Made by a program: the position numbers and the translations under genes
Part shown: one piece after another, positions 3,366 to 30,470 of the stretch
Layout: each line of letters starts with the position of its first letter
How positions within the stretch are numbered: the stretch's first letter is position 1
Assembly (NCBI GenBank): GCA_008534395.1
Contig: SHMQ01000019.1
Span: 1 to 30,470, forward strand
DNA: 30,470 nucleotides
Source of the DNA: Candidatus Acidulodesulfobacterium acidiphilum
Lineage (GTDB): Bacteria; SZUA-79; Acidulodesulfobacterales; Acidulodesulfobacteraceae
Reading direction: 5' to 3'
Notes under the pieces: generated by a model
What the model was told of the DNA's origin: nothing
The model's input: only the letters and a program-made list of their open reading frames with translations
The model's database searches: none

Positions 3366-4487
3366 ATGAATAATAAAGAACGTTTATTTTCTATTGCAAA
3401 GAAAATTAAACCGGTTAATAAAAAAAAGTTTTATAAAATTGCCGAAAACAGGCTGAATAAGCTGATTAAACCTAAGGGCAGCCTCGGCAGATTAGAGGAC
3501 TTTGCAAAAGACGTAGTAGCTATAACGGAAGAAGAAAGGCCTTTTTTGGCTTATTATAATAAAGAAGATAAATGTTTAAATCTTAATAAATGCGTCTGCG
3601 TTTTTGCCGGAGACCACGGAGTCGTCGAAGAGGGCGTCAGTTTGTTTAAGCAGGACGTTACGACTCAAATGGTCAGGAATTTTCTTAGCGGCGGAGCCGC
3701 AATTAACGCCATAGCCGCTTCGGTCGGCGCCGATGTTTTAGTAACCGACGTAGGAATAAAAAGCGATGCGCCGTTTCAGGGAGATAATTTCATAAACGGA
3801 AAAGTAAAAAACGGCGCCTTTAATATTAACAAAGGTCCGGCAATGACGGAAAACGAAGCAGTAGAATCGATTTTAAAAGGAATAGAAACCGCCGATATAG
3901 TAATCAAGGAAAAAGATGCCAAAATATGCGCAACCGGCGATATGGGAATAGGTAATACGACGCCGGCTTCCGCGGTTACCTGCTTTTATTCAAAAAAATC
4001 TCCGGAACTCGTCTGCGGAAAAGGAACTGGTGTGAGCGCCGCCGTAATTAAGAAAAAAGCGGCAATTATTAAAAAAGCCATAGAATCTAATATAAGAGGC
4101 GGCGTAAATAGCGATGCCGTGGACGTCCTTGCCGGCGTCGGCGGACTGGAAATAGGCGCCATAGCCGGATTTATAATAGGGTGCGCTTTAAATAGGACGC
4201 CCGTAGTAGTGGACGGTTTTATTTCTACGGCAGGGGCTTTGATTGCTTTAAATATAAATCAGGCGGTTGCCGATTATATGTTTATGGGTCATCTTTCGGA
4301 AGAAAAAGGGCATAAAACGGCCGTTTCTCTTACCGGCAAAACCCCTATATTAAACCTTTCTATGAGGCTCGGCGAAGGAACCGGAGCAGTTATTGCTATG
4401 AAGATAATCGAAACGGCGCTCGATATGTATAATAATATGCTTACGTTCGACGAAGCGGGCGTTATAGCTTCAAAACTAAATGTTTAG
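3366..4487 (+). CDS. cobT: Nicotinate-nucleotide--dimethylbenzimidazole phosphoribosyltransferase
   Basis: CobT activates the lower-ligand base: it moves phosphoribose from nicotinate mononucleotide onto a benzimidazole to give the alpha-riboside phosphate used by CobS. The 373-residue protein shows the whole family pattern: KPKGSLGRLE near the N terminus, FAGDHGVVEEGVS, GDMGIGNTTPASA, GKGTGVS, PVVVDGFISTAGAL, MGHLSEEKGH and RLGEGTGA, whose Glu matches the catalytic base of the family. Homologues of about 350 residues are usual, so the length is normal. With a ThiC/BzaF homologue in the same locus, its real substrate may be 5-hydroxybenzimidazole. The start has no obvious ribosome binding site. 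Confidence 0.95.
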   Translation: MNNKERLFSIAKKIKPVNKKKFYKIAENRLNKLIKPKGSLGRLEDFAKDVVAITEEERPFLAYYNKEDKCLNLNKCVCVFAGDHGVVEEGVSLFKQDVTTQMVRNFLSGGAAINAIAASVGADVLVTDVGIKSDAPFQGDNFINGKVKNGAFNINKGPAMTENEAVESILKGIETADIVIKEKDAKICATGDMGIGNTTPASAVTCFYSKKSPELVCGKGTGVSAAVIKKKAAIIKKAIESNIRGGVNSDAVDVLAGVGGLEIGAIAGFIIGCALNRTPVVVDGFISTAGALIALNINQAVADYMFMGHLSEEKGHKTAVSLTGKTPILNLSMRLGEGTGAVIAMKIIETALDMYNNMLTFDEAGVIASKLNV

Positions 4488-19140: not shown

Positions 19141-19208
19141 AATTAAAAACCTGTTTATTTGCCTTAATCCCCCTGTTTGACTGCATAAATTCCTTTTTTT
19201 TAACCTAA

Positions 19209-19276
19209 ATGTAACATAAATTTAATATATTTGTAACTAATTTGTCATAATCCTGTAACAATAGCCGTGTTATTAT
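19209..19276 (+). promoter_or_regulatory. Candidate tandem Pho box and PhoB-type promoter
   Basis: Heptamers TTGTAAC (19231), TTGTCAT (19242) and CTGTAAC (19253) repeat at exactly 11 bp, and ATGTAAC (19209) lies two periods upstream. Consensus PhoB half-sites are CTGTCAT-like 7-mers with a 4-bp spacer, as here. The last half-site ends 11 bp before a -10-like TATTAT (19271-19276), where a weak -35 would be replaced by PhoB, which is the known layout of Pho promoters. The leader to the next ATG would be about 65 nt. A second TG-T-TATAAT at 19322-19330 lies too close to the ribosome binding site to be a good promoter. Confidence 0.6.
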
Positions 19277-19347
19277 ATTTATGATTATATATTTTATAAA
19301 TATTGAAAAATTTAGTTTCGGTGTTATAATAAAAGGAGAAATAAACG

Positions 19348-19770
19348 ATGGAAGAAATTAAAAAAAGCGAAGATTATATGAATATGAGCATGGCTATATC
19401 TCCCGAAAAATATTTTGACAGCAGGTTCGACGGTCAGGAGAAGCTTTTCACCGAAAAGTTTAATACCCTCCAGACGCAAATTAATTCCATCCAGACGCAA
19501 ATAGAGACTTTATCCGATAGATTAGGTTCCGAAATTTCGAGGCTCGACGATAAAATAGACTTTGAAATAACCAGCCTTAAAGAAAACGAAATTAAAAATC
19601 TAAACGATAAAATGGATGCAGGATTTAAAGCGCAGAGCGAAAAATTTGAAACCAAGATAGATGCTTTAGATAAAAGGCTAACCTTCGGATTTACCGTAAT
19701 ATTGTCGGTACTCGGCGTTTTAACTGCGGTACTCGGTGTTTTGGTAACGCTGCATTTTATAGGACGATAG
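19348..19770 (+). CDS. Coiled-coil protein with C-terminal membrane anchor
   Basis: The 140-residue protein has a polar N terminus, a long heptad-patterned region (about 30-110; LQTQINSIQTQIETLSDRLG and following) and a C-terminal hydrophobic segment (about 112-137). This is a tail-anchored layout like that of small Bdr/DUF1640-like coiled-coil proteins; no function is assigned. AAGGAG lies about 9 bases before the ATG. The upstream Pho-like array suggests induction by phosphate limitation. It appears monocistronic, with a repeat unit about 80 bases downstream. Confidence 0.8.
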   Translation: MEEIKKSEDYMNMSMAISPEKYFDSRFDGQEKLFTEKFNTLQTQINSIQTQIETLSDRLGSEISRLDDKIDFEITSLKENEIKNLNDKMDAGFKAQSEKFETKIDALDKRLTFGFTVILSVLGVLTAVLGVLVTLHFIGR

Positions 19771-19847
19771 ACGATAAATCAGAAAAAATAAATCGGATGC
19801 CTGACGCACAAGATATGCAACACTCCCCCATTGCCTGTTAAATAAAA

Positions 19848-19950
19848 ACTCCCGACCGCGTCAAACGCAGTCGGGAGTAAGATACGTAGGCGGGCGCTTA
19901 TGAAAGTGAAGCTTTTATGCCCGCCGGAGTGAAATAAATCTGACACCTTT
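19848..19950 (-). repeat. Composite repeat, copy A (hairpin plus GGTGTCAG box, minus orientation)
   Basis: On the minus strand the GGTGTCAGATTTATTT box (from 19947 down) is followed by a GC-rich hairpin with arms at 19848-19860 and 19866-19878, loop of five bases, then a T run and TTTAACAGGCAAT. A second hairpin, GGCGGGC (19889-19895) with GCCCGCC (19919-19925), is inserted between box and hairpin in this copy only. The hairpin plus T run would act as a terminator for leftward transcription. Confidence 0.85.
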
Positions 19951-20005
19951 AATTTTAAAACAGTCGTCCGACAGCGGCTGATATTAGGCGGGTATTCGGT
20001 AAATT

Positions 20006-20569
20006 TTAACGCTTTACGAATTTAAGATAGCATCCCAATAAATCGCAATTTCTGGAGCTTTCGGCATACTTAAAACCGTGCGCGGTTATAAACTCTTTAT
20101 ACGATTCCCTGTCTTTGCCGAAGACCTCAAATCTCGGCTCTTTAATGGATAATAAGCCGCCTGGTTTCAATACCCGGCGCAGTTCGGCGACGGCTTCTTC
20201 CTTTTTGCCAATCTCGTGAAACGAATAATATAAAAATGCTAAATCTATAGAGCCGTCCTCTACCGAATTTAAATCCGATACGCTGGACGCCCTGAAATCG
20301 ACGTTTTGAAGATATCCTCTTTTTCTTTTAGCTTTTTCTATCATCTTTTTCTGAATATCTACAGAGATTACGAATCCTTCCTTTCCGACGGCTTTCGATA
20401 ATGCCGGAGTAACGAAGCCGCTTCCGCATCCCGCTTCAAGAACTTTCATTCCGCTTTTAACTCCCATAATATCGACGTTTTTTTCCATGTTTTCTATCAA
20501 ACTTCTAAGTTTGTTGTCGATAATAAAGGAAAAAAATGCGGGAAATAAATCGTAAGTTTTTAGTTTCAT
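20006..20569 (-). CDS. Class I SAM-dependent methyltransferase
   Basis: The 187-residue protein has methyltransferase motif I VLEAGCGSGFVTPAL (about 43-57), the acidic SAM-ribose strand VISVDIQ, DLAFLYYSFHEI (motif III region) and LRRVLKPGGLLSIKEPRF. It resembles small UbiE/ArsM-like methyltransferases, but the substrate cannot be told from sequence. It lies 50 bases downstream of the SQR-like gene on the same strand and probably shares its transcript. The start ATG at 20569 has no clear ribosome binding site. Confidence 0.85.
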   Translation of the reverse strand: MKLKTYDLFPAFFSFIIDNKLRSLIENMEKNVDIMGVKSGMKVLEAGCGSGFVTPALSKAVGKEGFVISVDIQKKMIEKAKRKRGYLQNVDFRASSVSDLNSVEDGSIDLAFLYYSFHEIGKKEEAVAELRRVLKPGGLLSIKEPRFEVFGKDRESYKEFITAHGFKYAESSRNCDLLGCYLKFVKR

Positions 20570-20619
20570 AAATATTGACGGATAGAGGGCTTTTACGATA
20601 TTTTTTGCCCGGTTTTGAT

Positions 20620-21783
20620 TTAAAATCCGGGTATTCTCGGAAACCTGTTTAATTTTGAATTTTTATAATACCATCCCCAGAATCTTTTAAGCCAGTGTCC
20701 GACGACCGGCAGCGCGATTACCGTTTCCTTATTCGTATCCCTTTTGATATAGACCGCGCCTTTGCCGTTGTCCATTACGCACAAGATATGCACGTGCTCT
20801 TTGTAGCCTTTATAATTATTCGTTCCGGCTTCTTTTTCGTTTATATTGTAAGCCGCGATACCCGCCATCATCTCGGCGACGTGCCCCTGTTTTCCCCTGA
20901 AAGGAGGCCCGTCGAGGCTGGCCGAATCGCCTATCGCGTAAATATTTTCTAAGCCCTCTACTCTTAAATAATCGTCGGTTTTTATGAATCCGGCTTCCGT
21001 GAGCGGCAGTTCCGAACCGGCAAATATCCCGTGGGCGCTTCCGGCGGGAACAAAAATAATAAGGTCGCTTTCAAGCCTTGAATCGTCTTCGAATACGACT
21101 GCGCCGTTTTCGAATCTTTTTATTTTTTTGCCTAAATATTTGTTAATTTTAAGGTCTTCGTAAAACCGGTTTAGCAGTTTATACGCTTTATCGCCCAGCC
21201 GCTTGCCCGGAGTTTCCATAGGGGCGAAGATGCTTAATTCGAAATTATGGCGCAATCCTTTATCTCTTAAGAGGTTGTCGATATTAAACAGCTCTTCGAA
21301 AGCAGGTCCGCCTCTCATAGCGGAAGGGTCTTTGGGATTTCCGCCTATTCCTACGGCTATTCTGCCTTTTCCGGCTTTAACCAATTCTGCTAATTTTTCT
21401 TTTATTTTAATCGATTCTTCCGGAGCGCCGCAAATAGAATAAGTATTTTCTATTCCTTCGGGTTTGGCTTTTCCTGCGCCGACGGCGACGACGAGATAAT
21501 CAAAATCATAGGTGCCATTTTTACATAATACTTTCTTTTCTTTAGCAGAAATTTTAACCGCCGAGTCTATTATTAAATTAAATTTATGGACTGCGCTTAA
21601 TTTATTTAACGGCAGCATCGCATCCTTAAAATCCAGAGCGCCGACAGGAATCCATATCGAAAGCGGATAAATATACATAAAATCCCTTTCGGAAATCAAA
21701 GTAACGTCGAAATTATATTTCTTTAGCCTTATCGCGGCTTCTACTCCCGCAAAACCGCCTCCTATAACGAGTATTTTTTTCAT
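20620..21783 (-). CDS. SQR-like FAD-dependent oxidoreductase
   Basis: This 387-residue flavoprotein belongs to the disulfide-reductase superfamily, close to sulfide:quinone oxidoreductase. The FAD-binding GGGFAGVEAA lies at 8-17, and the second FAD motif is IYAIGDSASL (about 281-290). Cysteines are C87, C118 (SICGAPEES) and C335 (HILCVMDNGKGA). C118 and C335 match two of the three usual SQR cysteines, but the middle one, expected in the stretch GGNPKDPSAMRGGPAFE, is absent. An aromatic amphipathic C terminus (HWLKRFWGWYYKNS) suggests monotopic membrane attachment. The substrate could be sulfide, a polysulfide or something else. A GGGGGA ribosome binding site precedes the ATG. It leads a two-gene operon with the methyltransferase. 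Confidence 0.85.
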   Translation of the reverse strand: MKKILVIGGGFAGVEAAIRLKKYNFDVTLISERDFMYIYPLSIWIPVGALDFKDAMLPLNKLSAVHKFNLIIDSAVKISAKEKKVLCKNGTYDFDYLVVAVGAGKAKPEGIENTYSICGAPEESIKIKEKLAELVKAGKGRIAVGIGGNPKDPSAMRGGPAFEELFNIDNLLRDKGLRHNFELSIFAPMETPGKRLGDKAYKLLNRFYEDLKINKYLGKKIKRFENGAVVFEDDSRLESDLIIFVPAGSAHGIFAGSELPLTEAGFIKTDDYLRVEGLENIYAIGDSASLDGPPFRGKQGHVAEMMAGIAAYNINEKEAGTNNYKGYKEHVHILCVMDNGKGAVYIKRDTNKETVIALPVVGHWLKRFWGWYYKNSKLNRFPRIPGF

Positions 21784-22000: not shown

Positions 22001-22084
22001 GCCTGTTAAACAAAAACTCCCGGCCGCGTCAAACGCAGTCGGGAGTAAAGGAATAATTAAATCTGACACCTTTATTTTGACACC
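22001..22084 (-). repeat. Composite repeat, copy B (minus orientation)
   Basis: On the minus strand, two boxes (GGTGTCA ending at 22078 and GGTGTCAG at 22070-22063) are followed by a GC-rich hairpin with arms at 22016-22028 and 22034-22046, then a T run and the tail GTTTAACAGGCAAT. It directly follows a pilin fragment that ends in TAA, as copy C follows the intact pilin gene. Confidence 0.85.
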
Positions 22085-22090
22085 TTTATT

Positions 22091-22129
22091 TTAAGCCTCG
22101 CTGTCCTTTGCCCTGTTGACGTAGCTTAA
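22091..22129 (-). pseudogene. Inverted fragment of a type IV pilin gene
   Basis: Read on the minus strand, 22129-22094 codes [12 protein letters not shown] and then TAA (22093-22091). The intact pilin downstream has the same 12 residues directly after its hydrophobic helix. The codons differ (AGGGCAAAGGACAGC against CGCGCAAAGGATTCG), so this is a diverged paralogue, not a recent copy. The preceding codon frame meets a TAG, and no hydrophobic helix or leader is present upstream. Confidence 0.7.
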
Positions 22130-22248
22130 ATCCTAGTAAGAATTTAATTAAACCGGCACTCCGCCTTGCTTTGCAGGAATACCAAGAGTTTGACGACATT
22201 CTGTATTTTACCGGATTTTCTGTATTTTCTGTATTTTGATTTAAGTTC

Positions 22249-22386
22249 TGACACATTTTTGTCACAGTTTTAAAAATCCAAGTGACAATTTTTGTCAATT
22301 AGTGACAATTTTTGTCATACCTTTAAATATAAGTAAAATTAAGCATTTTAAGGAATTTATTAATTAGCGGTTGACAATTTTTGTCA
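22249..22386. promoter_or_regulatory. Four palindromic sites upstream of the pilin promoter (candidate activator sites)
   Basis: Three identical palindromes TGACAATTTTTGTCA (22283-22297, 22303-22317 and 22372-22386) and a variant with the same TGACA/TGTCA arms at 22249-22264. Two of them are exactly 20 bp apart, placing them on one face of the helix. They lie about 100-240 bp upstream of a sigma-54 promoter, the usual place for enhancer-binding proteins. A PilR-type activator is the likely reader; PilR sites in Pseudomonas contain a TGTC core. Three TTCTGTATTTT-like direct repeats precede the array. Confidence 0.65.
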
Positions 22387-22483: not shown

Positions 22484-22500
22484 TTGGCATAAAATATGCT
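22484..22500 (+). promoter_or_regulatory. Sigma-54 promoter of the pilin gene
   Basis: TTGGCA (22484-22489) and TGCT (22497-22500) carry the invariant GG (22486-22487) and GC (22498-22499) separated by exactly 10 bases, as RpoN requires. Transcription would begin near 22511. The RNA would run through the truncated pilin leader copy (22609) before the intact gene (22784), giving a leader of about 270 nt. PilA promoters are commonly RpoN/PilR-dependent. Confidence 0.75.
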
Positions 22501-22608: not shown

Positions 22609-22674
22609 ATGAACATTAACAGATTAAAGGGAAAGAAGGGTTTCACCCTATTTTGCATATATGTAACATATTGA
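22609..22674 (+). pseudogene. Truncated pilin leader copy
   Basis: A strong ribosome binding site (TAAGGAGG) and an ATG open a frame with the leader [14 protein letters not shown], identical in its 14 residues to the intact pilin. It then diverges into seven unrelated residues and ends in TGA. The similarity covers about 60 bases including the ribosome binding site, with synonymous differences (AAGGGAAAG against AAAGGAAAG; TTCACC against TTTACG). It is either debris of a deleted pilin gene or a 5' duplication. It could be translated as a 21-residue peptide. Confidence 0.75.
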
Positions 22675-22783: not shown

Positions 22784-23461
22784 ATGAACATTAACAGATT
22801 AAAAGGAAAGAAAGGTTTTACGTTGATCGAGCTTTTAATCGTCATCGCCATTATCGGTATCTTGGCGGCGATAGCGATTCCGACGTATTTGTCATACGTC
22901 AACCGCGCAAAGGATTCGGAAGCGTCCACGAACCTTGGCGCAATTTTCACGGACGAAACGGCGTTTAACGCGACGAATTCGACTTACATCAGCGCGGGGT
23001 TAGCAGCCAATAGCGGAACAAATGCTATTACTTCATTCTCAAATACCGCAGCTACATCTACTCATCCGTTCTATGCTGTCGGCACTTCATATTATATTGA
23101 CACTCCACCATTTCAATGTGTAAATTATACATTAGAAACTTACGGCGGTTACACTACGGAACCCACAGGGGGAACACAGCCGGCTGGAGCAACTCTTGTA
23201 TCAGCTAAAGGCGGATTTGGAGATATTGGCTTTTTGCCTAAAGGAACATTGTATTTTTACTATGAAGTCAATTCCGCTACAGCAGCCAATACCGCTGTTC
23301 CTGTTTCAACGACTACGCCTTGGGTTACTCCTGCAAACGCTGCTTGTGGACCAGGCTATACCGCTTTAGCGGTGGCCAATTTTACAGGTTCTAATTTACA
23401 AGCTTTTGCGGTAAACGATTACACCACTAAAGCTACATTAATTACGGGAACAGCTTACTAA
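22784..23461 (+). CDS. pilA: Type IV pilin (major pilin-like)
   Basis: The 225-residue prepilin has a class III leader [11 protein letters not shown], cleaved before F12, and the mature N terminus [20 protein letters not shown] with Glu5 conserved. The helix continues to [13 protein letters not shown]. The globular part (about 55-225) is Ala/Thr/Gly-rich and has two cysteines, in FQCVNYT and NAACGPGY, that could form a disulfide. The N-terminal codons are GC-richer than the rest, which suggests a mosaic gene with a conserved 5' end and a replaced 3' part. TAAGGAGG is a strong ribosome binding site. The gene has a sigma-54 promoter. No pil assembly genes are in the window. Confidence 0.9.
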
Positions 23462-23615
23462 AAAAAAGGTGTCAGATTTATTTATAATAAAAAAAAGGTG
23501 TCAGATTTATTTATTATCTTACTCCCGACTGCGTTTGACGCAGTCGGCAAAAAAGGTGTCAGATTTATTTATTCTCTTACTCCCGACTGCGTTTGCCGTG
23601 GTCGGAAGTTTTTAT
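23462..23615 (+). repeat. Composite repeat block C (three boxes, two hairpins)
   Basis: GGTGTCAG boxes begin at 23468, 23497 and 23555. Hairpin one has arms CCGACTGCG (23525-23533) and CGCAGTCGG (23539-23547). Hairpin two spans 23579-23609 and is followed by TTTTTA. The block begins right at the pilin stop codon. Hairpin two keeps its pairing through G-T pairs (CCGTGGTCGG arm). Either hairpin could terminate pilin transcription. Confidence 0.85.
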
Positions 23616-23631
23616 TTTTATAATAGAATTA

Positions 23632-24558
23632 ATGAAATTTATAACACTATATGGGAATGATATTAAAAAAATGTTTATAATTCTTTTACAAATCATAATA
23701 GTACCAATTATATTATTCATTCTCGGACTAGTAATTCGTCATAAATATAAATTAAAACAGGATGACAGAATAGCTCATTTTAATAAACACAAAGAAAATT
23801 TAAAATCAATTAAAATTGTATTAGAAGATGTGAATAGTAGTTTTTTAACAAATATTAATGAAATAATTAGAAGTATTAATAATAATTTGTCAGCTACTTT
23901 TAATCTTCGTTATGAGCCTGATGTTGAAAAGACGAAAAGTGATTTAGCAACGGCTTGTAAAATGACTTTCAATTACGAATATTTTTTAAATAATTTTTCT
24001 ATATTAAATTATAGTTACAATAAAGGGAATTTTTTAATTAATACCGTTAACCCCAATTCTTCTAACTTGGATTATAAACCTAAGATTGATAAAAAATTGT
24101 ATGCCGATATAGAAAACCATTTTAAAGAACTATCAGATAAACTTAAAGATTTTGAGAGAGAGGCAAAGAGCGTTATACCTGACTTTATTAAAAATGTCTG
24201 TGAAATTTTGCAACTTATATATATGGAAATAGAAAAAACAAAAGAACAAAATAAAGAAAATAGAGATATGTATTATTTATTACCGAGACATGATTATGCA
24301 ATCTCAATTTTTTATGATTTAATTAAATTACAGGATCCCAATAATTCTTTTGGAAAGATTCCTGAAAACTCGATAAATGATTACAATATTATATCTTATA
24401 ATTGTAATAATAAATTGGAAGAAAAGCTTAAAGAATTTCAATCTAATTTAGGCAAACTTAATAAATCAGAAGACATAGGCGAAGATTGTATTGATATAAT
24501 AGACGGATTGATAAATACGGGAGCAAATAAATTTAAGGGAAAGTGCAAATTAATTTAA
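23632..24558 (+). CDS. Membrane-anchored coiled-coil protein, unknown function
   Basis: Counting from the ATG at 23632 gives 308 residues. One N-terminal membrane segment (about 14-35) is followed by a Lys/Asn/Glu-rich, largely helical cytoplasmic part with coiled-coil tendency (about 40-60 and 160-215). No family was recognised. The frame extends back to a TTG at 23593, but that lies in the repeat hairpin, so I reject it. The ATG at 23671, just before the helix, is an alternative. No start has a convincing ribosome binding site. Codon use is AT-rich (Asp almost always GAT) and unlike the neighbours, suggesting recent transfer. It sits between two copies of the composite repeat. Confidence 0.7.
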   Translation: MKFITLYGNDIKKMFIILLQIIIVPIILFILGLVIRHKYKLKQDDRIAHFNKHKENLKSIKIVLEDVNSSFLTNINEIIRSINNNLSATFNLRYEPDVEKTKSDLATACKMTFNYEYFLNNFSILNYSYNKGNFLINTVNPNSSNLDYKPKIDKKLYADIENHFKELSDKLKDFEREAKSVIPDFIKNVCEILQLIYMEIEKTKEQNKENRDMYYLLPRHDYAISIFYDLIKLQDPNNSFGKIPENSINDYNIISYNCNNKLEEKLKEFQSNLGKLNKSEDIGEDCIDIIDGLINTGANKFKGKCKLI

Positions 24559-24560
24559 TT

Positions 24561-24620
24561 AAAGTCAGATTTAATTATTCATTTATTCCCGACTGCGTTT
24601 GACGCGGTCGGGGGTTTTTA
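24561..24620 (+). repeat. Composite repeat, copy D (degenerate box)
   Basis: GTCAGATTTAATTATTC (from 24564) lacks the first bases of the box. The hairpin at 24585-24615 has the arm ATTCCCGACTGCG and a matching arm ending GTCGGGGGT, so the closing A-T pair has become a wobble. TTTTTA follows. It would terminate transcription of the coiled-coil gene. Confidence 0.8.
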
Positions 24621-24663
24621 TTTATAGAATATTGTCAATATTGTAGAAGGAGGCACAGGCACT

Positions 24664-25089
24664 ATGAGTAAACCTTATTGGTTTTTAAATAGTATAACTT
24701 TTATACTTGCTTTTATGGGAATGATTATTTTTTTTGCTCCCGCTAAGTCTTTTGCTTATAATAATAATACATTGATACCATCGCAGACAATATATCGAAT
24801 TCGCGCAGGTGCGGCTGAATCTATTAAATTTAAAGTTTATAGCAACGAAATATTAAGGGGTAGCTTTATTACCACCGAAAATATAACAGTTTATCTTTTA
24901 ACTCCGTACGAATATTTTAGGCTTGGACAGTATCCTTTTTCATATATTGATACTACTGGTAAAGTTAGGCAGGGAAGTATCCAATGGTTAGTTAATCCTG
25001 GAACTTACTATCTTGTTTTTGATAATAGAAATATAATATTAGAAACAAATGTTATGATACAAAGTTCATTTGAATTGTCTAGCGAATAA
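24664..25089 (+). CDS. Small secreted protein, unknown function
   Basis: The 141-residue protein has a signal peptide: a hydrophobic core IILAFMGMIIFFA-like at about 10-26, with likely cleavage after FAPAKSFA (about residue 32). The mature part is beta-rich in pattern, with ITVYLLTPYEYFRLG and GTYYLVFDNRN. It contains no cysteines, so it would be a small exported or periplasmic domain. AAGGAGG lies 10 bases before the ATG. It is flanked on both sides by composite repeats and follows the same cassette-like pattern as the preceding gene. Codons are AT-rich. Confidence 0.75.
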   Translation: MSKPYWFLNSITFILAFMGMIIFFAPAKSFAYNNNTLIPSQTIYRIRAGAAESIKFKVYSNEILRGSFITTENITVYLLTPYEYFRLGQYPFSYIDTTGKVRQGSIQWLVNPGTYYLVFDNRNIILETNVMIQSSFELSSE

Positions 25090-25093
25090 AAAG

Positions 25094-25153
25094 GGTGCCA
25101 GATTTATTTATTCTCTTACTCCCGACTGCGTTTGCCGTGGTCGGGAGTTTTTA
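25094..25153 (+). repeat. Composite repeat, copy E
   Basis: GGTGCCAG (one change from GGTGTCAG) begins at 25094, then ATTTATTTATTCTCTTACT leads into the hairpin at 25118-25148 with T-rich tail. The inner stem again uses G-T pairs (arm CCGTGGTCGG). It would terminate the secreted-protein gene. Confidence 0.85.
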
Positions 25154-25252
25154 TTTTTTTATTTATTTTTTATATAATCGTTATGATATAATTTAACATT
25201 TGCGTAATACTTATGGAATTTTAATTAAATTATAAAAAGAAAAGAAAATACG

Positions 25253-27160
25253 ATGAAAAAATCGTTTCTTTCAAACATTTCGATAATTTTCCTCTATTTC
25301 TTAATATGGGTATATATGACATACCCTTTAATCCTGCATTTTTCGTCCGTTATGCCCGGAAACGGCGGGGACGAATACTTAATGGCTTGGTTTTTCTGGG
25401 AGTTTTACCGTTCCGTTTTTATTCTTCACAAACTGCCCTATTTTACGCATTTAGTTTATTACCCGCACGGCGTTCCTTTATATGTTACGACCGCCATGCC
25501 CGTTAACGCCGTAATAGCTTCCGTAATATATTTTTTTACAAAAAACTTAATACTTTCGTTTAACGTTCTTTTCTTAGCGGCTTCTATTTTAAACGCGTAT
25601 TTTGCTTATCTTTTAGCCTATGATACGGTCTGCAGCAGAACCGCTTCGTTTTTTGCGGGTCTTATATTTGCGTTTTCTCCTATTTTAATAGAGCAGGCAA
25701 GGTGGGGGGATATAAACATCTGGAGCGCATACGGTATTCCTTTATATATACTATTTTTTAACAGGCTTTATAGAAACCCTAACCTAAAAAACGCCCTGCT
25801 CGCGGCTCTGGGGCTTTTTTTAGCCACGTATGCCGGTTTTTACGAGTTTACCGCAATTTTATTTTTATATTCCGTATTTTTTATTTTATATAAATATATT
25901 TCAAACTACTCGGATTATAGAAAGTCTTTAATAAAAGGTCCTGAAAGTTCCAAACCTGTAAACGATATAAGCCGTAAAATAAAATCCCTGCTGAATAATC
26001 CCGCGCTTAACCGGCGGTATTTAAAATATCTATCGGTAATGATTTTATCTTTTGTTATAGTATCGTCGCCTTTGCTTCTGCCCGCTTTTTATTATGTATA
26101 TTTTAAACCGCGTCTTTTAAACTTTAATCCCAATCTTTTCTGGTCTAAGGCATATTCCTCGACCATAATAAGCTTTTTTACGCCGCCGTTTTATAACCGT
26201 CTGCTGATTAATTTTACCAAAGCGATTTATTTTAACGGGATTTACCCCATTATGTACAGGGGCGCAAATTCCGTTGATTTTTTAGGATATATCCCGCTTG
26301 TATTTTTTATAATAGCGGTAATAAAAATGAAAAGCGTTAAAGATAAGGAATTAAAATTCTATCTATCCGCTTTTATATTATTCGTATTAATGAGCCTGTC
26401 CCCTTTAATCCATATCGTAAACAACATAAGGGTATTCGACCCGTTTGTGTATTTATTGGATATTATGCCGGTTATTAAAGATATTCAGGAGTCCGGCAGG
26501 TATATGATAATAGGGTATCTGTTTTTCGGGATAGTATGCGCATACGGGATTAAGGCGTTTTTTGATTATTTAGGCGGTAAAATTAAAACAAACGAGAGAG
26601 CGGGCGGAAGCATTAAAAAAGCTTTAAGCGGGATTATGGTTATATTGATTTTTGCGGGGACTCTTGCGGGATACTCCGCCAGTCCGTTCGAGATGAGGGC
26701 GGAAAAGGCATCGAGAGGCGTATATATTCTTAAAAAAGAGCCTTACGGGGCGGTATTGACTATTCCTTTTATGCAGGGCGGGTTTAAAATGTACGAACAG
26801 ACTATTTACGATAAGCCGATGATAGGCGGCTATATAATAAGATACGGTTTCCACGACCTTTACAAAAAATACCTGCCCCAGAGGTTTTACAGCCTTAAAG
26901 GTATTCATTACAACGGAAACGGCATTAATCAGATTGTTATAAACAGGCTCGGCGACCCGTCCGATATTGCAAGAAATTTTAAATACCTTAAAGTAATCGG
27001 GGTAAGATATATTATAATTAAAAAAAATCTTCTTTCCCAGGAATACGGCTGGGACAAGAAGCGGGCAAAAGAAGTATTGCGCGGATTAAAGCCGGACGGC
27101 TCTATTTTGAGCGTTATATATAACGGAAAAAATATTATGATATTAAAACTTAAATTTTAA
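25253..27160 (+). CDS. Large polytopic membrane protein, GT-C-like glycosyltransferase
   Basis: The 635-residue protein has about 11-12 membrane segments and a C-terminal soluble domain (about 500-635). The first periplasmic loop holds an acidic pair in GNGGDEYLMAWFFWEF (about 37-52), the position of the catalytic acidic motif in GT-C fold glycosyltransferases, and a later ARWGDINIW-type motif follows. GT-C enzymes use polyprenyl-phosphate sugars at the outer face of the inner membrane. The acceptor is unknown; a pilin or surface glycan is possible given the neighbours. It is followed after 13 bases by a second protein of similar design. Function is inferred from topology and the loop motif only. 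Confidence 0.7.
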   Translation: MKKSFLSNISIIFLYFLIWVYMTYPLILHFSSVMPGNGGDEYLMAWFFWEFYRSVFILHKLPYFTHLVYYPHGVPLYVTTAMPVNAVIASVIYFFTKNLILSFNVLFLAASILNAYFAYLLAYDTVCSRTASFFAGLIFAFSPILIEQARWGDINIWSAYGIPLYILFFNRLYRNPNLKNALLAALGLFLATYAGFYEFTAILFLYSVFFILYKYISNYSDYRKSLIKGPESSKPVNDISRKIKSLLNNPALNRRYLKYLSVMILSFVIVSSPLLLPAFYYVYFKPRLLNFNPNLFWSKAYSSTIISFFTPPFYNRLLINFTKAIYFNGIYPIMYRGANSVDFLGYIPLVFFIIAVIKMKSVKDKELKFYLSAFILFVLMSLSPLIHIVNNIRVFDPFVYLLDIMPVIKDIQESGRYMIIGYLFFGIVCAYGIKAFFDYLGGKIKTNERAGGSIKKALSGIMVILIFAGTLAGYSASPFEMRAEKASRGVYILKKEPYGAVLTIPFMQGGFKMYEQTIYDKPMIGGYIIRYGFHDLYKKYLPQRFYSLKGIHYNGNGINQIVINRLGDPSDIARNFKYLKVIGVRYIIIKKNLLSQEYGWDKKRAKEVLRGLKPDGSILSVIYNGKNIMILKLKF

Positions 27161-27173
27161 CAATTATGAAAAT

Positions 27174-28865
27174 ATGAAAAAGATTTTAAAAGCAAGTTTG
27201 ATTTTCGTCTTTGCCTTAGCCGTTTTCGGGCTCTGGCTTATTGCTCTTTTTCACATTTCAAGCCTGTGGAGAGGGGATTCCGATAACGCTTATTTAGTTA
27301 TAGCCGGAAACGCCATAGCCAAAGGAAATTATATTTTACGGGGATATTATCTGTCCCAGCTTGACCCGTTTTATTCCATAGATATGTTTGTTAATGCCGC
27401 CTTTGTTAAACTGCTTGGTTTTAGACCGCTGATAATGCACGCAGTCCCCGTCTTTTTATATGCCGTATTTATTTTAATAGCCTGTTTTTATATTCCGCGT
27501 GAAAAAGACGAAGTAAACGGCAACGCCGGCTTAATATTTAAAACCGGTTTATTTTTATTCATAATTTTTTTGGTATTTCCTTCAAGAGGTTTAGCTTTCT
27601 GGGCGCTTCAGGAAGGCATGCATCTTTCCGCCGTTATCGTTTCTCTTTTAGTTTTCCTATTAATTAATAAATTTTTAAAAACGGCTTCGCGTTTATCTTA
27701 TTTATTTTTAACGGTAGCTTTTATAATTTTAACCGCCGGTTTTGCAAACGATAACGTAAACGTCGTAATTTGCGGAGTTCCTTTGATAGTTTTAAACATT
27801 GTTTTTATTGCCAAAGAAGTTATTGGAAAAGACGAAAATTATAACAATATCGGTAAGTATCTGCTTATAGTTTTATCCGTTATAACAGCTTATCTGCTTA
27901 AGGAGTTAATATTTTTAGCAATTAAGGCTGACGGCGGTTTTGTAACTGTTCCTTCAAGGCTTTCCATAGCCTTCGTCCGTTTAAAATTTTTCGTAAAAAA
28001 CTTTTATTTTTATATAAACGGAATGTTAAATCTTTTGGGAATAAAAGTATTCGGCAAAAATCTATTTTCATTAAAAACAGTTATAGAAATTTTTAAGATT
28101 ACGGGTTTCATTATATTTATATACGGAATTAAAACTACGGTAAAAAAAGTAAAAGAATTTAAAGATGATGATTTTCTGGATATTTTACTGTTAGGCGGAA
28201 TGCTATTTATGTCTTTAGGTTTTTTAATGAGTCAAATTCCCGTAAATAAGGCTTCTTCCAGATATTTAATGCCAGTAGCAGTTTTCGGATTTATTCTTAT
28301 TATAAGAAATTTTGGATACGTAATAAACGGCTTTATGAAAAATAAAACCTTAGATATTATAAAGAAAGACGGCGTAAAAGTTAAAAATTTTAAACCTGTT
28401 TTTTTAGAAATCTCCGTCGCCTTCGTTTTCATGATTTACGCCGGTTCGTTTACCTTAAATTCTTTAGCCGTTATTCCAAAAAGTCCGGTCAGGCCTTTAG
28501 GGAAATGGCTCATAAGGCATAATTTAACATACGGTTACGGAACTTACTGGGATAGTTCTATAATTACGCTTAAAACCAAAGGTAAAGTAAAAGTTAGGCA
28601 GTTAATTTCCGGCGGTAACGGAATAGTTCCGTATAGATGGCTTTGCAATAAGAAATGGTATAAAGAGAAAGGATTTTTTGTAATTTATACGGAACATTTT
28701 ATATGGTTTGACAGACAGGCTATAATAAAAGTATTCGGCAAACCTTCAAAAGTTTATATAGAAGATTTTCAAGGGACGCTCGGGAAGCCTTACGGAAGGT
28801 CAAGCGGAAGAGGAACGCTTGCTCCGTACGTAATAATGGTGTATAAAAACGGGATTATGCCGTGA
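27174..28865 (+). CDS. Second GT-C-like polytopic membrane protein
   Basis: The 563-residue protein has about 10-11 membrane segments. The first loop has LWRGDSDNAYLVIAGNA (about 31-47), an acidic motif again placed as in GT-C enzymes, followed by LSQLDPFYSID. The C terminus (about 435-563) is soluble and aromatic. It is not a close copy of the upstream gene but has the same architecture and the gap between the genes is only 13 bases, so the pair is probably an operon. It may be a sugar transferase with the same unknown acceptor. Confidence 0.65.
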   Translation: MKKILKASLIFVFALAVFGLWLIALFHISSLWRGDSDNAYLVIAGNAIAKGNYILRGYYLSQLDPFYSIDMFVNAAFVKLLGFRPLIMHAVPVFLYAVFILIACFYIPREKDEVNGNAGLIFKTGLFLFIIFLVFPSRGLAFWALQEGMHLSAVIVSLLVFLLINKFLKTASRLSYLFLTVAFIILTAGFANDNVNVVICGVPLIVLNIVFIAKEVIGKDENYNNIGKYLLIVLSVITAYLLKELIFLAIKADGGFVTVPSRLSIAFVRLKFFVKNFYFYINGMLNLLGIKVFGKNLFSLKTVIEIFKITGFIIFIYGIKTTVKKVKEFKDDDFLDILLLGGMLFMSLGFLMSQIPVNKASSRYLMPVAVFGFILIIRNFGYVINGFMKNKTLDIIKKDGVKVKNFKPVFLEISVAFVFMIYAGSFTLNSLAVIPKSPVRPLGKWLIRHNLTYGYGTYWDSSIITLKTKGKVKVRQLISGGNGIVPYRWLCNKKWYKEKGFFVIYTEHFIWFDRQAIIKVFGKPSKVYIEDFQGTLGKPYGRSSGRGTLAPYVIMVYKNGIMP

Positions 28866-28921
28866 AATAAAAAGCACTTAAATTTTTATTATTTTAAATT
28901 TTAAGATTATGAGGCAATAAA

Positions 28922-29059
28922 ATGGATGTAAAACCGGATATTGTTTTTTTATTAGGCGCGGGCGCTTCGAAAGAAGCGGGTGTTCCCGATACCGTAGAAT
29001 TTGTTAAGAAAAGAGGTGTCAGCAACTGTGTTATTTGTCAAGTAAAATATTTAATGTAA
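28922..29059 (+). pseudogene. N-terminal stub of a SIR2-like gene, truncated by the insertion sequence
   Basis: The first 30 residues (MDVKPDIVFLLGAGASKEAG and following) show the NAD-binding beta-strand plus GAGAS loop of SIR2-like domains, such as those found in several antiphage defence proteins and in stand-alone SIR2 proteins. At about 29013 the sequence leaves the family and reads 14 residues that look like insertion-sequence DNA, ending at TAA (29057-29059). A GAGG ribosome binding site lies 8 bases before the ATG. The rest of the gene is not on the far side of the element, at least not in this window. Confidence 0.75.
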
Positions 29060-30206
29060 GTTATTGAAATAATTAATAAAATATAAAATCCATTTTTTGG
29101 TTATTTTATTTCAATTTAATTAATTTTTTTCTATAAATTTCCAAATATTTTATTAAGCAGATAACATAGTTGCATCCCACATTTTATCGTTTTTCATCAT
29201 GCTGTTTAATATCGTTATTAATTTTCTCATGCAGGCGACTATAGCAACCTTTTTAGGTTTTCCCTTAGATACGAGCCTGTCGTAAAATGTTCTTATTACG
29301 TCGTTAAATCTTATCGAAGATAGTGTTGACATATACAAAATCTTTCTTATAAACGACCTTCCGCCCCATATGCTTTTTTTGCCTCTATACTTGCCGCTGT
29401 CTTTATTAAACGGAGCGACTCCTACCAAAGAAGCGCACTGTTTTCTGTTTAAAGTACCTAGTTCCGGCATAACTGCTAAAAGGGTAGTGGTTAATATTTT
29501 GCCTACCCCGGGTACCGAATTTAAAATATCCGATTTATGGTTTATAGGGCCTTCTTTTTTAAGAAAGTCGTCTATGTCTTCGTCTATCCTCCTTAGATGT
29601 TTCTCTAAGGTTCTTACGATTCTTAATATATCGTTCCTAACCGATTTATGGGAAACTTCGAGCCTGTTTTTTTCCGCCGTTATCATATTGATTAACTGAT
29701 CCCTTCTTGTAATCAAAGCCGTAAGTTCCTGAAGCGTTTCGTCTTTAAAGCTTCTGTATTCGGGTTTAATCTCTTTTGCGAATAAAGCTATTATTTCCGA
29801 ATCAATCTTATCCGTTTTGGCAAGTTTGTTTTTGGCTTTGGCAAAGTCCCTAATCCTTCTCGGATTAGTTACTACTACCGGAAGATTTTCCTTTAGCAGA
29901 GAAAAAACCAGATTGTTCTGATAAACTCCGGTTGATTCTACTACGATAGAAGCAGGCTTTAGCTCTTTAGCTATTTTTACTATTTCTTCTATGCCTTTTT
30001 CGTCGTTGGTAGTTTTTAAAACTTTGTTAGACGGAACGATAAATAGATCCAAATCGGCTTTTGATACGTCGATTCCAAAAAAAGATTCTTCCATAAATAC
30101 CTCCAATTTTTAAATAAACTCATTCTTGCAAAGATTCGGGCTTATAAGCCCAGGCAACTGTTCGAGCTTTATTTAATATGAGGCCGGTAGCGAAAAATGC
30201 TGACAC
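29016..30206 (-). mobile_element. IS110-family insertion sequence (approximate ends)
   Basis: The recombinase is IS110-type. A 9-base inverted repeat GTGTCAGCA flanks it (29016-29024, and its complement at 30198-30206), giving a 1.19-kb unit. IS110 elements lack long terminal repeats, and IS1111-type members have short subterminal ones, so the true ends may lie slightly outside. If the leader hairpin pair (30182-30249) belongs to the element, its upstream end is near or beyond 30250. Confidence 0.7.
29153..30094 (-). CDS. IS110-family DEDD recombinase
   Basis: The protein has the RuvC-like DEDD domain at the N terminus: FGIDVSKADLDL, IVVESTGVYQ and KTDKIDSEIIALFA supply the acidic residues. 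The C-terminal Tnp20 domain has SVPGVGKILTTTLLAVMPEL, LVGVAPFNKDSGKYRG (the Ser is a candidate catalytic residue) and RSFIRKILYMS. IS110 recombinases move circular intermediates with an RNA guide. I set the start at the ATG at 30094 (313 residues): the in-frame TTG at 30106 overlaps the GGAGG ribosome binding site. The full length and intact motifs suggest an active enzyme. Confidence 0.92.
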   Translation of the reverse strand: MEESFFGIDVSKADLDLFIVPSNKVLKTTNDEKGIEEIVKIAKELKPASIVVESTGVYQNNLVFSLLKENLPVVVTNPRRIRDFAKAKNKLAKTDKIDSEIIALFAKEIKPEYRSFKDETLQELTALITRRDQLINMITAEKNRLEVSHKSVRNDILRIVRTLEKHLRRIDEDIDDFLKKEGPINHKSDILNSVPGVGKILTTTLLAVMPELGTLNRKQCASLVGVAPFNKDSGKYRGKKSIWGGRSFIRKILYMSTLSSIRFNDVIRTFYDRLVSKGKPKKVAIVACMRKLITILNSMMKNDKMWDATMLSA

Positions 30207-30250: not shown

Positions 30251-30470
30251 TTTACTGCCAAAACTTAAATTTTTAAATGCTAATTGTTAATGTTGCGTTT
30301 ATCTCATCAAGTTATGCATTATAGCAATTAGGCGGAGTAATTTTCAACTAAGTAAGATTTTAATCTGCTTTAATTATTTTCGGCGGCCTAATTATCCCCG
30401 CCCTCCCGCCCTAACGTCTTAAATAAATATGTATATTAAATTATATTATGTATATTATACAAGATTTATT
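30251..30470. other. AT-rich non-coding end of the window
   Basis: No open frame, RNA gene or continuation of the SIR2-like gene was found in this stretch on either strand. It may be flanking DNA of the insertion or promoter DNA of a gene beyond the window. Confidence 0.4.

Follow-up and report, generated by a model that had tools for sequence, protein, structure and literature searches.

Insertion of a mobile element into a pilin gene has been described in pneumococci. According to the excerpts of two reports drawn on here, Int2b prophages are integrated in comGC, which encodes the major pilin of the competence pilus, excision restores comGC, and the lysogens, in which comGC is only disrupted, are not transformable (PMC7600539, PMC10383233). 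The locus we describe here resembles that system in that a phage-type integrase appears to place an element inside a major pilin gene, near its 5' end, and the pilin in both cases belongs to a type IV pilus-like machine. It differs in that the excerpts on the prophages describe no replacement pilin, whereas the element here carries a complete, different pilin beside attR. Segments of the type 4 pilin of Moraxella are reportedly inverted by Piv (as cited in PMC11208160). The Moraxella system shares with ours the opposed pilin segments, one silent C-terminal part and a site-specific recombinase, but here a tyrosine integrase would insert an element, and nothing shows IS110-like inversion. Elements and phages that insert in protein genes such as icd complement their target by rebuilding its end in frame. 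A protein gene is likewise targeted at this locus and its function would stay available, but through a whole divergent gene that brings along its own upstream region. In Rhs loci and in those for contact-dependent inhibition, orphan C-termini persist, and here too a headless, old variable C-terminus stands beside a new complete gene; the difference is that this orphan would be the distal part of the gene that holds the attachment site, stranded there when the element inserted by an integrase-type reaction. We found no account in the open-access literature of an element that targets a pilin gene and also supplies a pilin; this is weak evidence of novelty, as subscription journals lie mostly outside that literature.

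The window analysed is the whole 30,470-nucleotide stretch of contig SHMQ01000019.1 (C19) of Candidatus Acidulodesulfobacterium acidiphilum (genome G000). The short pilin remnant within it is very probably the attR of an integrative element, with attB located within a type IV pilin gene. Pili function in adhesion and DNA uptake and, for many bacteria, in phage entry as well, and an element that breaks and replaces a pilin gene would exchange the surface fibre in a single recombination step. With such an element, gene conversion would not be needed to explain why pilins are diverse in this bacterial family and why some occur as headless fragments.

The pilin remnant and its relatives

On the minus strand, positions 22129-22094 encode 12 residues, in the codons TTA AGC TAC GTC AAC AGG GCA AAG GAC AGC GAG GCT. 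They are directly followed by TAA at 22093-22091, either the old pilin's own stop or a product of deletion, and then by the GGTGTCA boxes of repeat copy B (22008-22090, minus strand), which abuts the truncated remnant. As the initial annotation had stated, the residues are the same as in the window's intact pilin and the codons differ, with 24/36 nt identical to those for residues 36-47. The best match to the peptide elsewhere in the window, in all six frames and with the intact pilin and the remnant excluded, is only 6/12, and shuffled controls reach 5-6/12 (n = 10 shuffles); the match is therefore not due to chance. By contrast with the intact pilin, the remnant shares 33/36 nt with the uninterrupted pilin of G012:C36 and 35/36 nt with a headless pilin piece in G016:C54. 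Judged by its codons, the remnant is of a pilin lineage other than that of the intact pilin.

Upstream of the remnant the similarity runs on into a conserved noncoding header (22131-22262, minus strand) that is found in other genomes and with which the element would end on its right side. When attL, attR and pilin core sites are aligned, the attR core TTTAAGCTACGTCAACAGGGCA falls at 22109-22130 on the minus strand, its first ~9 nt probably coming from the element and the remainder from the host. Codon and core comparison point to 22094-22121 (minus strand, CGTCAACAGGGCAAAGGACAGCGAGGCT) as the residue of the C-terminal part of the interrupted host pilin.

With the intact pilin of the window as query, a search of 30 family genomes found many complete pilins, together with headless pieces starting at residue 36. 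These pieces are opposed to a nearby complete pilin in G016:C54, G025:C26, G008:C3, G024:C33 and G005:C85. Such orphans are pilin C-terminal parts without a start codon, each standing behind the ~130-nt noncoding header, which ends at a core like TTTAAGCTACGTCAA. Header and orphan occur together at eight loci in seven genomes (G000, G024, G025, G016 twice, G008, G006 and G005). The orphan frames are open for 175-202 codons in G025, G024, G008 and G016:C28, and decayed in G005, G006 and the window. A complete second pilin lies ~470-900 bp inside attR at all six loci with enough sequence inside the header, G016:C28 and G006:C46 having been left out because their contigs end. A single 17.7-kb contig, G016:C54, holds part of the integrase, cargo, the complete pilin, header and orphan. 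The possibility that the 12-residue match might be isolated was thus not borne out, since near-complete C-terminal pilin pieces occupy the corresponding place in related elements. G000 keeps the header and the first 12 codons of the C-terminal part, with the rest absent; after insertion the host's orphan C-terminus would have been deleted, leaving ~28 nt, and the attL side rearranged.

At ~3477-3885 of G005:C85 (L129), in contrast to other elements, the inner part of the header forms a series of partial tandem copies. In G028:C29 (L127), a 454-aa open frame at 1-1362 takes in a C-terminal pilin part corresponding to query residues 38-225 and may be a fusion.

Attachment sites, integrase and cargo

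The matching left ends were found in G008:C1, G012:C51 and G019:C42, where a ribosome-binding site and pilin codons 1-42 are followed by GCCTAATTTCC. Only ~40 bp separate attL from the end of an integrase gene in G008 and G012 (PF00589, E=1.9e-36 and 2e-35), and this gene is preceded by an excisionase-like HTH_17 gene; the G012 element also has primase-like Toprim and DUF3987 genes. A 22-bp core, TTTAAGCTACGTCAAYAGGGCA, is common to the N-terminal (attL) and C-terminal (attR) pieces. To the left of the crossover attL has host letters (ATGAGCTA in G012) and to the right element letters, while attR has host letters to the right (TGTAAACCGTGC in G016:C28). We infer from these few variants that strand exchange takes place at, or just before, the end of AGCTA. 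In G008, attL and attR share the core and rebuild an intact attB: its flanks joined at the core give an open 246-residue frame that reads as a normal pilin. In G000 attR has the core, and attL is rearranged.

The attachment site would be nt 105-126 of the pilin gene (about codons 35-42), at the border between the conserved N-terminal and the variable part. Sequence comparison shows that insertion splits the host pilin, with codons 1-42 at attL and the headless C-terminal part at attR, and that the right end of the element has a complete, different pilin in divergent orientation, often with two large membrane-protein genes. The tyrosine integrase may recombine the core via arm-type repeats. The element pilin would be expressed from its own sigma-54-like promoter and take the place of the host pilin, so that the pilus function of the cell would be kept and the type of fibre exchanged on arrival of the element; excision would presumably restore the host gene. 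The inverted geometry at the window's locus would arise because the mobile element carries its own pilin divergently beside attR.

Two sets of repeats in the right arm are as expected of arm-type integrase sites. The 19-mer AAACTGTGACAAAAATGTG at 22252-22270 (minus strand) is repeated exactly at the integrase end (C14:575-593), and three TGACAAAAATTGTCA boxes follow within 22283-22386 on the same strand (22283-22297, 22303-22317 and 22372-22386); both are candidate arm-type sites. The element defines attB, candidate attP arms and an integrase, and header-core-GCCTAATTT is a predicted integrase substrate against the pilin core site. Viral contigs yielded no attachment-site sequence that would represent attP in a circular form. 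Viral contigs and phage records together gave no attachment-site sequence and no pilin relative, and integrase relatives merely 25-37% identical. In plasmid records the best ten integrase relatives listed were 31-34% identical, with one of 3,693 records in the 60-80% band.

Within the window's genome the element can be followed over three contigs. The last 122 bases of the window (30349-30470, plus strand) are identical to the first 122 of contig C57 and match in full nowhere else, and the end of C57 overlaps the start of C14 by at least 125 bp. The C19-C57 join through the 122-bp overlap is likely rather than certain; by these overlaps the element continues to the integrase and is ~14.5 kb long. 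On C57-C14 the integrase gene is intact (353 aa) and is accompanied by another integrase-like gene, HTH_17 and an MNT/HEPN pair, and the same contigs include the left end. The integrase frame across C57-C14 shows, by eye, GMRKSE, RTKNG, HDLR, GHTS and QRYAH, the R-K-HxxR-H-Y residues of a tyrosine recombinase (PF00589 E=1.9e-36 being the value for the G008 copy). The selected element genes scanned (integrases, primase-like, HTH, MNT/HEPN) included none recognised as coding for phage structure, and no relaxase or type IV secretion gene was noticed among the proteins scanned. An Rfam scan of the window gave a single tRNA and nothing else. The left-end core lies at C14:663-682 without a pilin N-terminus, adjoining a fragment of a homologue of membrane protein 2. 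The N-terminal half of the pilin must have been lost in some later rearrangement. As both halves of the old pilin are lost, excision could not restore the gene and the insertion in G000 is probably permanent. The assemblies are draft metagenomes, and the two-ended element is not intact in G000. At C14 663-2931 (L183) the integrase-end core is fused to the membrane-protein-2 homologue within the latter's coding frame, and an inverted copy of the window's 19195-19800 region (93-95%) directly follows.

An empty host site may be represented by G012:C36. There an uninterrupted pilin lies ~2 kb from the flanking oxidoreductase gene and from homologues of the window genes 20623-21783 and 20009-20569. 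This synteny rests on one genome; in stretches from G016, G019 and G024 there was no pilin beside the flanking oxidoreductase gene.

The element's own type IV pilin is complete (225 aa; 22784-23461, plus strand) and has a prepilin cleavage/N-methylation motif (PF07963, E=1.7e-9, and TIGR02532, both above cut-off). Upstream, a GG-N10-GC sequence, TTGGCATAAAATATGCT (22484-22500, plus strand), common to several related pilins, is consistent with a sigma-54 promoter. At 22609-22674 (plus strand), 175 bp before the intact ATG, an abortive pilin start runs into a stop; it is probably where the element's pilin formerly began. The same layout is seen in G024:C33, and similar short pilin starts occur in G028:C6, G009:C8, G004:C14 and G007:C25, a pattern that would fit replacement of the pilin module downstream of an old start. 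Downstream are the two cargo genes, for a large multi-pass membrane protein 1 (25253-27160, plus strand) and a large membrane protein 2 (27174-28865, plus strand). Homologues of membrane protein 1 adjoin the pilin in G025:C26, G016:C54 and G024:C56. Membrane protein 1 has no match in Pfam, NCBIfam or PDB sequences, and its predicted fold (mean pLDDT 46) is too poor for use; membrane protein 2 has no NCBIfam match, and a homologue searched against Pfam gave none. From their multi-pass make-up one might guess that these proteins glycosylate the pilin. An IS110-family transposase gene also lies inside the element (29153-30106, minus strand). Just before it, window positions 28883-29008 are 78% like G008:C3:12393-12533 and look like a gene start cut off before the IS110 gene.

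Other origins of the opposed pilin pieces

The initial annotation had proposed that a pilin-plus-repeat unit was duplicated or inverted beside itself and then deleted internally. What stands of this proposal is that the remnant comes from an older pilin gene, inverted relative to the intact pilin and internally deleted; the neighbouring unit as its source does not. The inverted orientation, the same 12 residues and the similar repeats behind both copies had spoken for it, but the codons, with 24/36 nt shared with the neighbour and 33-35/36 with other pilins, largely refute it. Against it too are the conserved non-pilin header ahead of the remnant and the mirror halves linked to an integrase. 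The boxes do follow the intact pilin as well, as had been noted, but the genome holds 147 matches with ≤1 mismatch, against 3 in a backwards control, and sharing a genome-wide family says little on common descent. We consider this origin very unlikely.

Only a little less unlikely is an invertible switch, in which a promoter and N-terminal codons flip between two opposed C-terminal cassettes, as in Moraxella. The opposed C-terminal parts would fit a switch, as would a shared core (87-95% alike, ~35 bp; L070, L080 and L066) around a promoter segment and silent frames that are open in four loci. Insertion, and not inversion, accounts for the integrase-proximal N-terminal halves and for an integrase half that is near-identical in two genera; furthermore, the recombinase at the junction is a phage-type integrase (PF00589) and not IS110-like Piv, and the silent side in the window has almost no C-terminus. 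The window's own IS110-family gene was considered as an invertase, but it is 6 kb away and no link to the site was found. Least probable of all is that silent cassettes donate to the expressed pilin by gene conversion, as in Neisseria pilS. Headless orphans open over 175-202 codons in four loci might serve as donors, and in G024:C33 the orphan and the expressed pilin are 79% alike and unlike all others. Yet there is a single orphan per locus, exactly at the attachment core, own-locus pairs are no closer than others in G025 (49%) and G008 (60%), and several orphans are decayed. Both the switch and the conversion reading were given up because the integrase-proximal N-terminal halves were found. 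With integration into the pilin gene as the preferred reading, a secondary inversion between the attR core and the core of the element pilin could still have taken place.

Movement of the element and the repeat family

The element has moved recently between genera, as DNA comparison shows. G008 belongs to another genus than G000, and the RNase G proteins of the two are 73% identical in amino acids, whereas DNA identity with G008:C3:1-3429 and G008:C1:1-2188 reaches 99.3-99.7% over C57 and the first 682 bases of C14. A single G008 contig, C3, holds the same integrase half together with attR and a pilin of its own. The element pilins of G000 and G008 are only 58% identical against 99.3-99.7% for the integrase half, so the pilin module has been exchanged and the integrase half has not. 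A further case across genera is the C-terminal part of the G016:C10 pilin, which shares 92% identity with the corresponding part of the G008 element pilin.

It is possible, although we hold this only tentatively, that elements compete for the pilin gene, each arrival silencing the expressed pilin, which may be that of an earlier element, and installing its own, with some carrying a pilin recoded at the core and thereby escaping their own integrase. If so, the type of pilus, and perhaps the sensitivity to pilus-dependent phages, would change with each insertion. In G016:C28, membrane-protein genes sharing 93% DNA identity with the window's cargo come after the header and orphan, which suggests nesting by insertion into an element's own pilin. 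Recoding would fit the mismatches to the core, which leave the amino acids unchanged and number 7 of 22 nt for the element pilin of G000 and 6 for that of G008, against 0-2 for several other pilins. Self-immunity by such recoding was rejected: the G025 element pilin differs from the core at only 1 nt, G016:C28 shows insertion into a recoded pilin, and the pattern is inconsistent over the elements.

The repeats consist of GGTGTCAGATTTA boxes with CTCCCGACTGCG hairpins and occur in the window at 19840-19955, 22008-22092, 23460-23620, 24555-24628 and 25088-25161. Contig C68 has one Y1_Tnp gene, which might encode a REP-associated transposase. Repeat copies also flank 20006-21783 on both sides, and recombination between them could delete that stretch.
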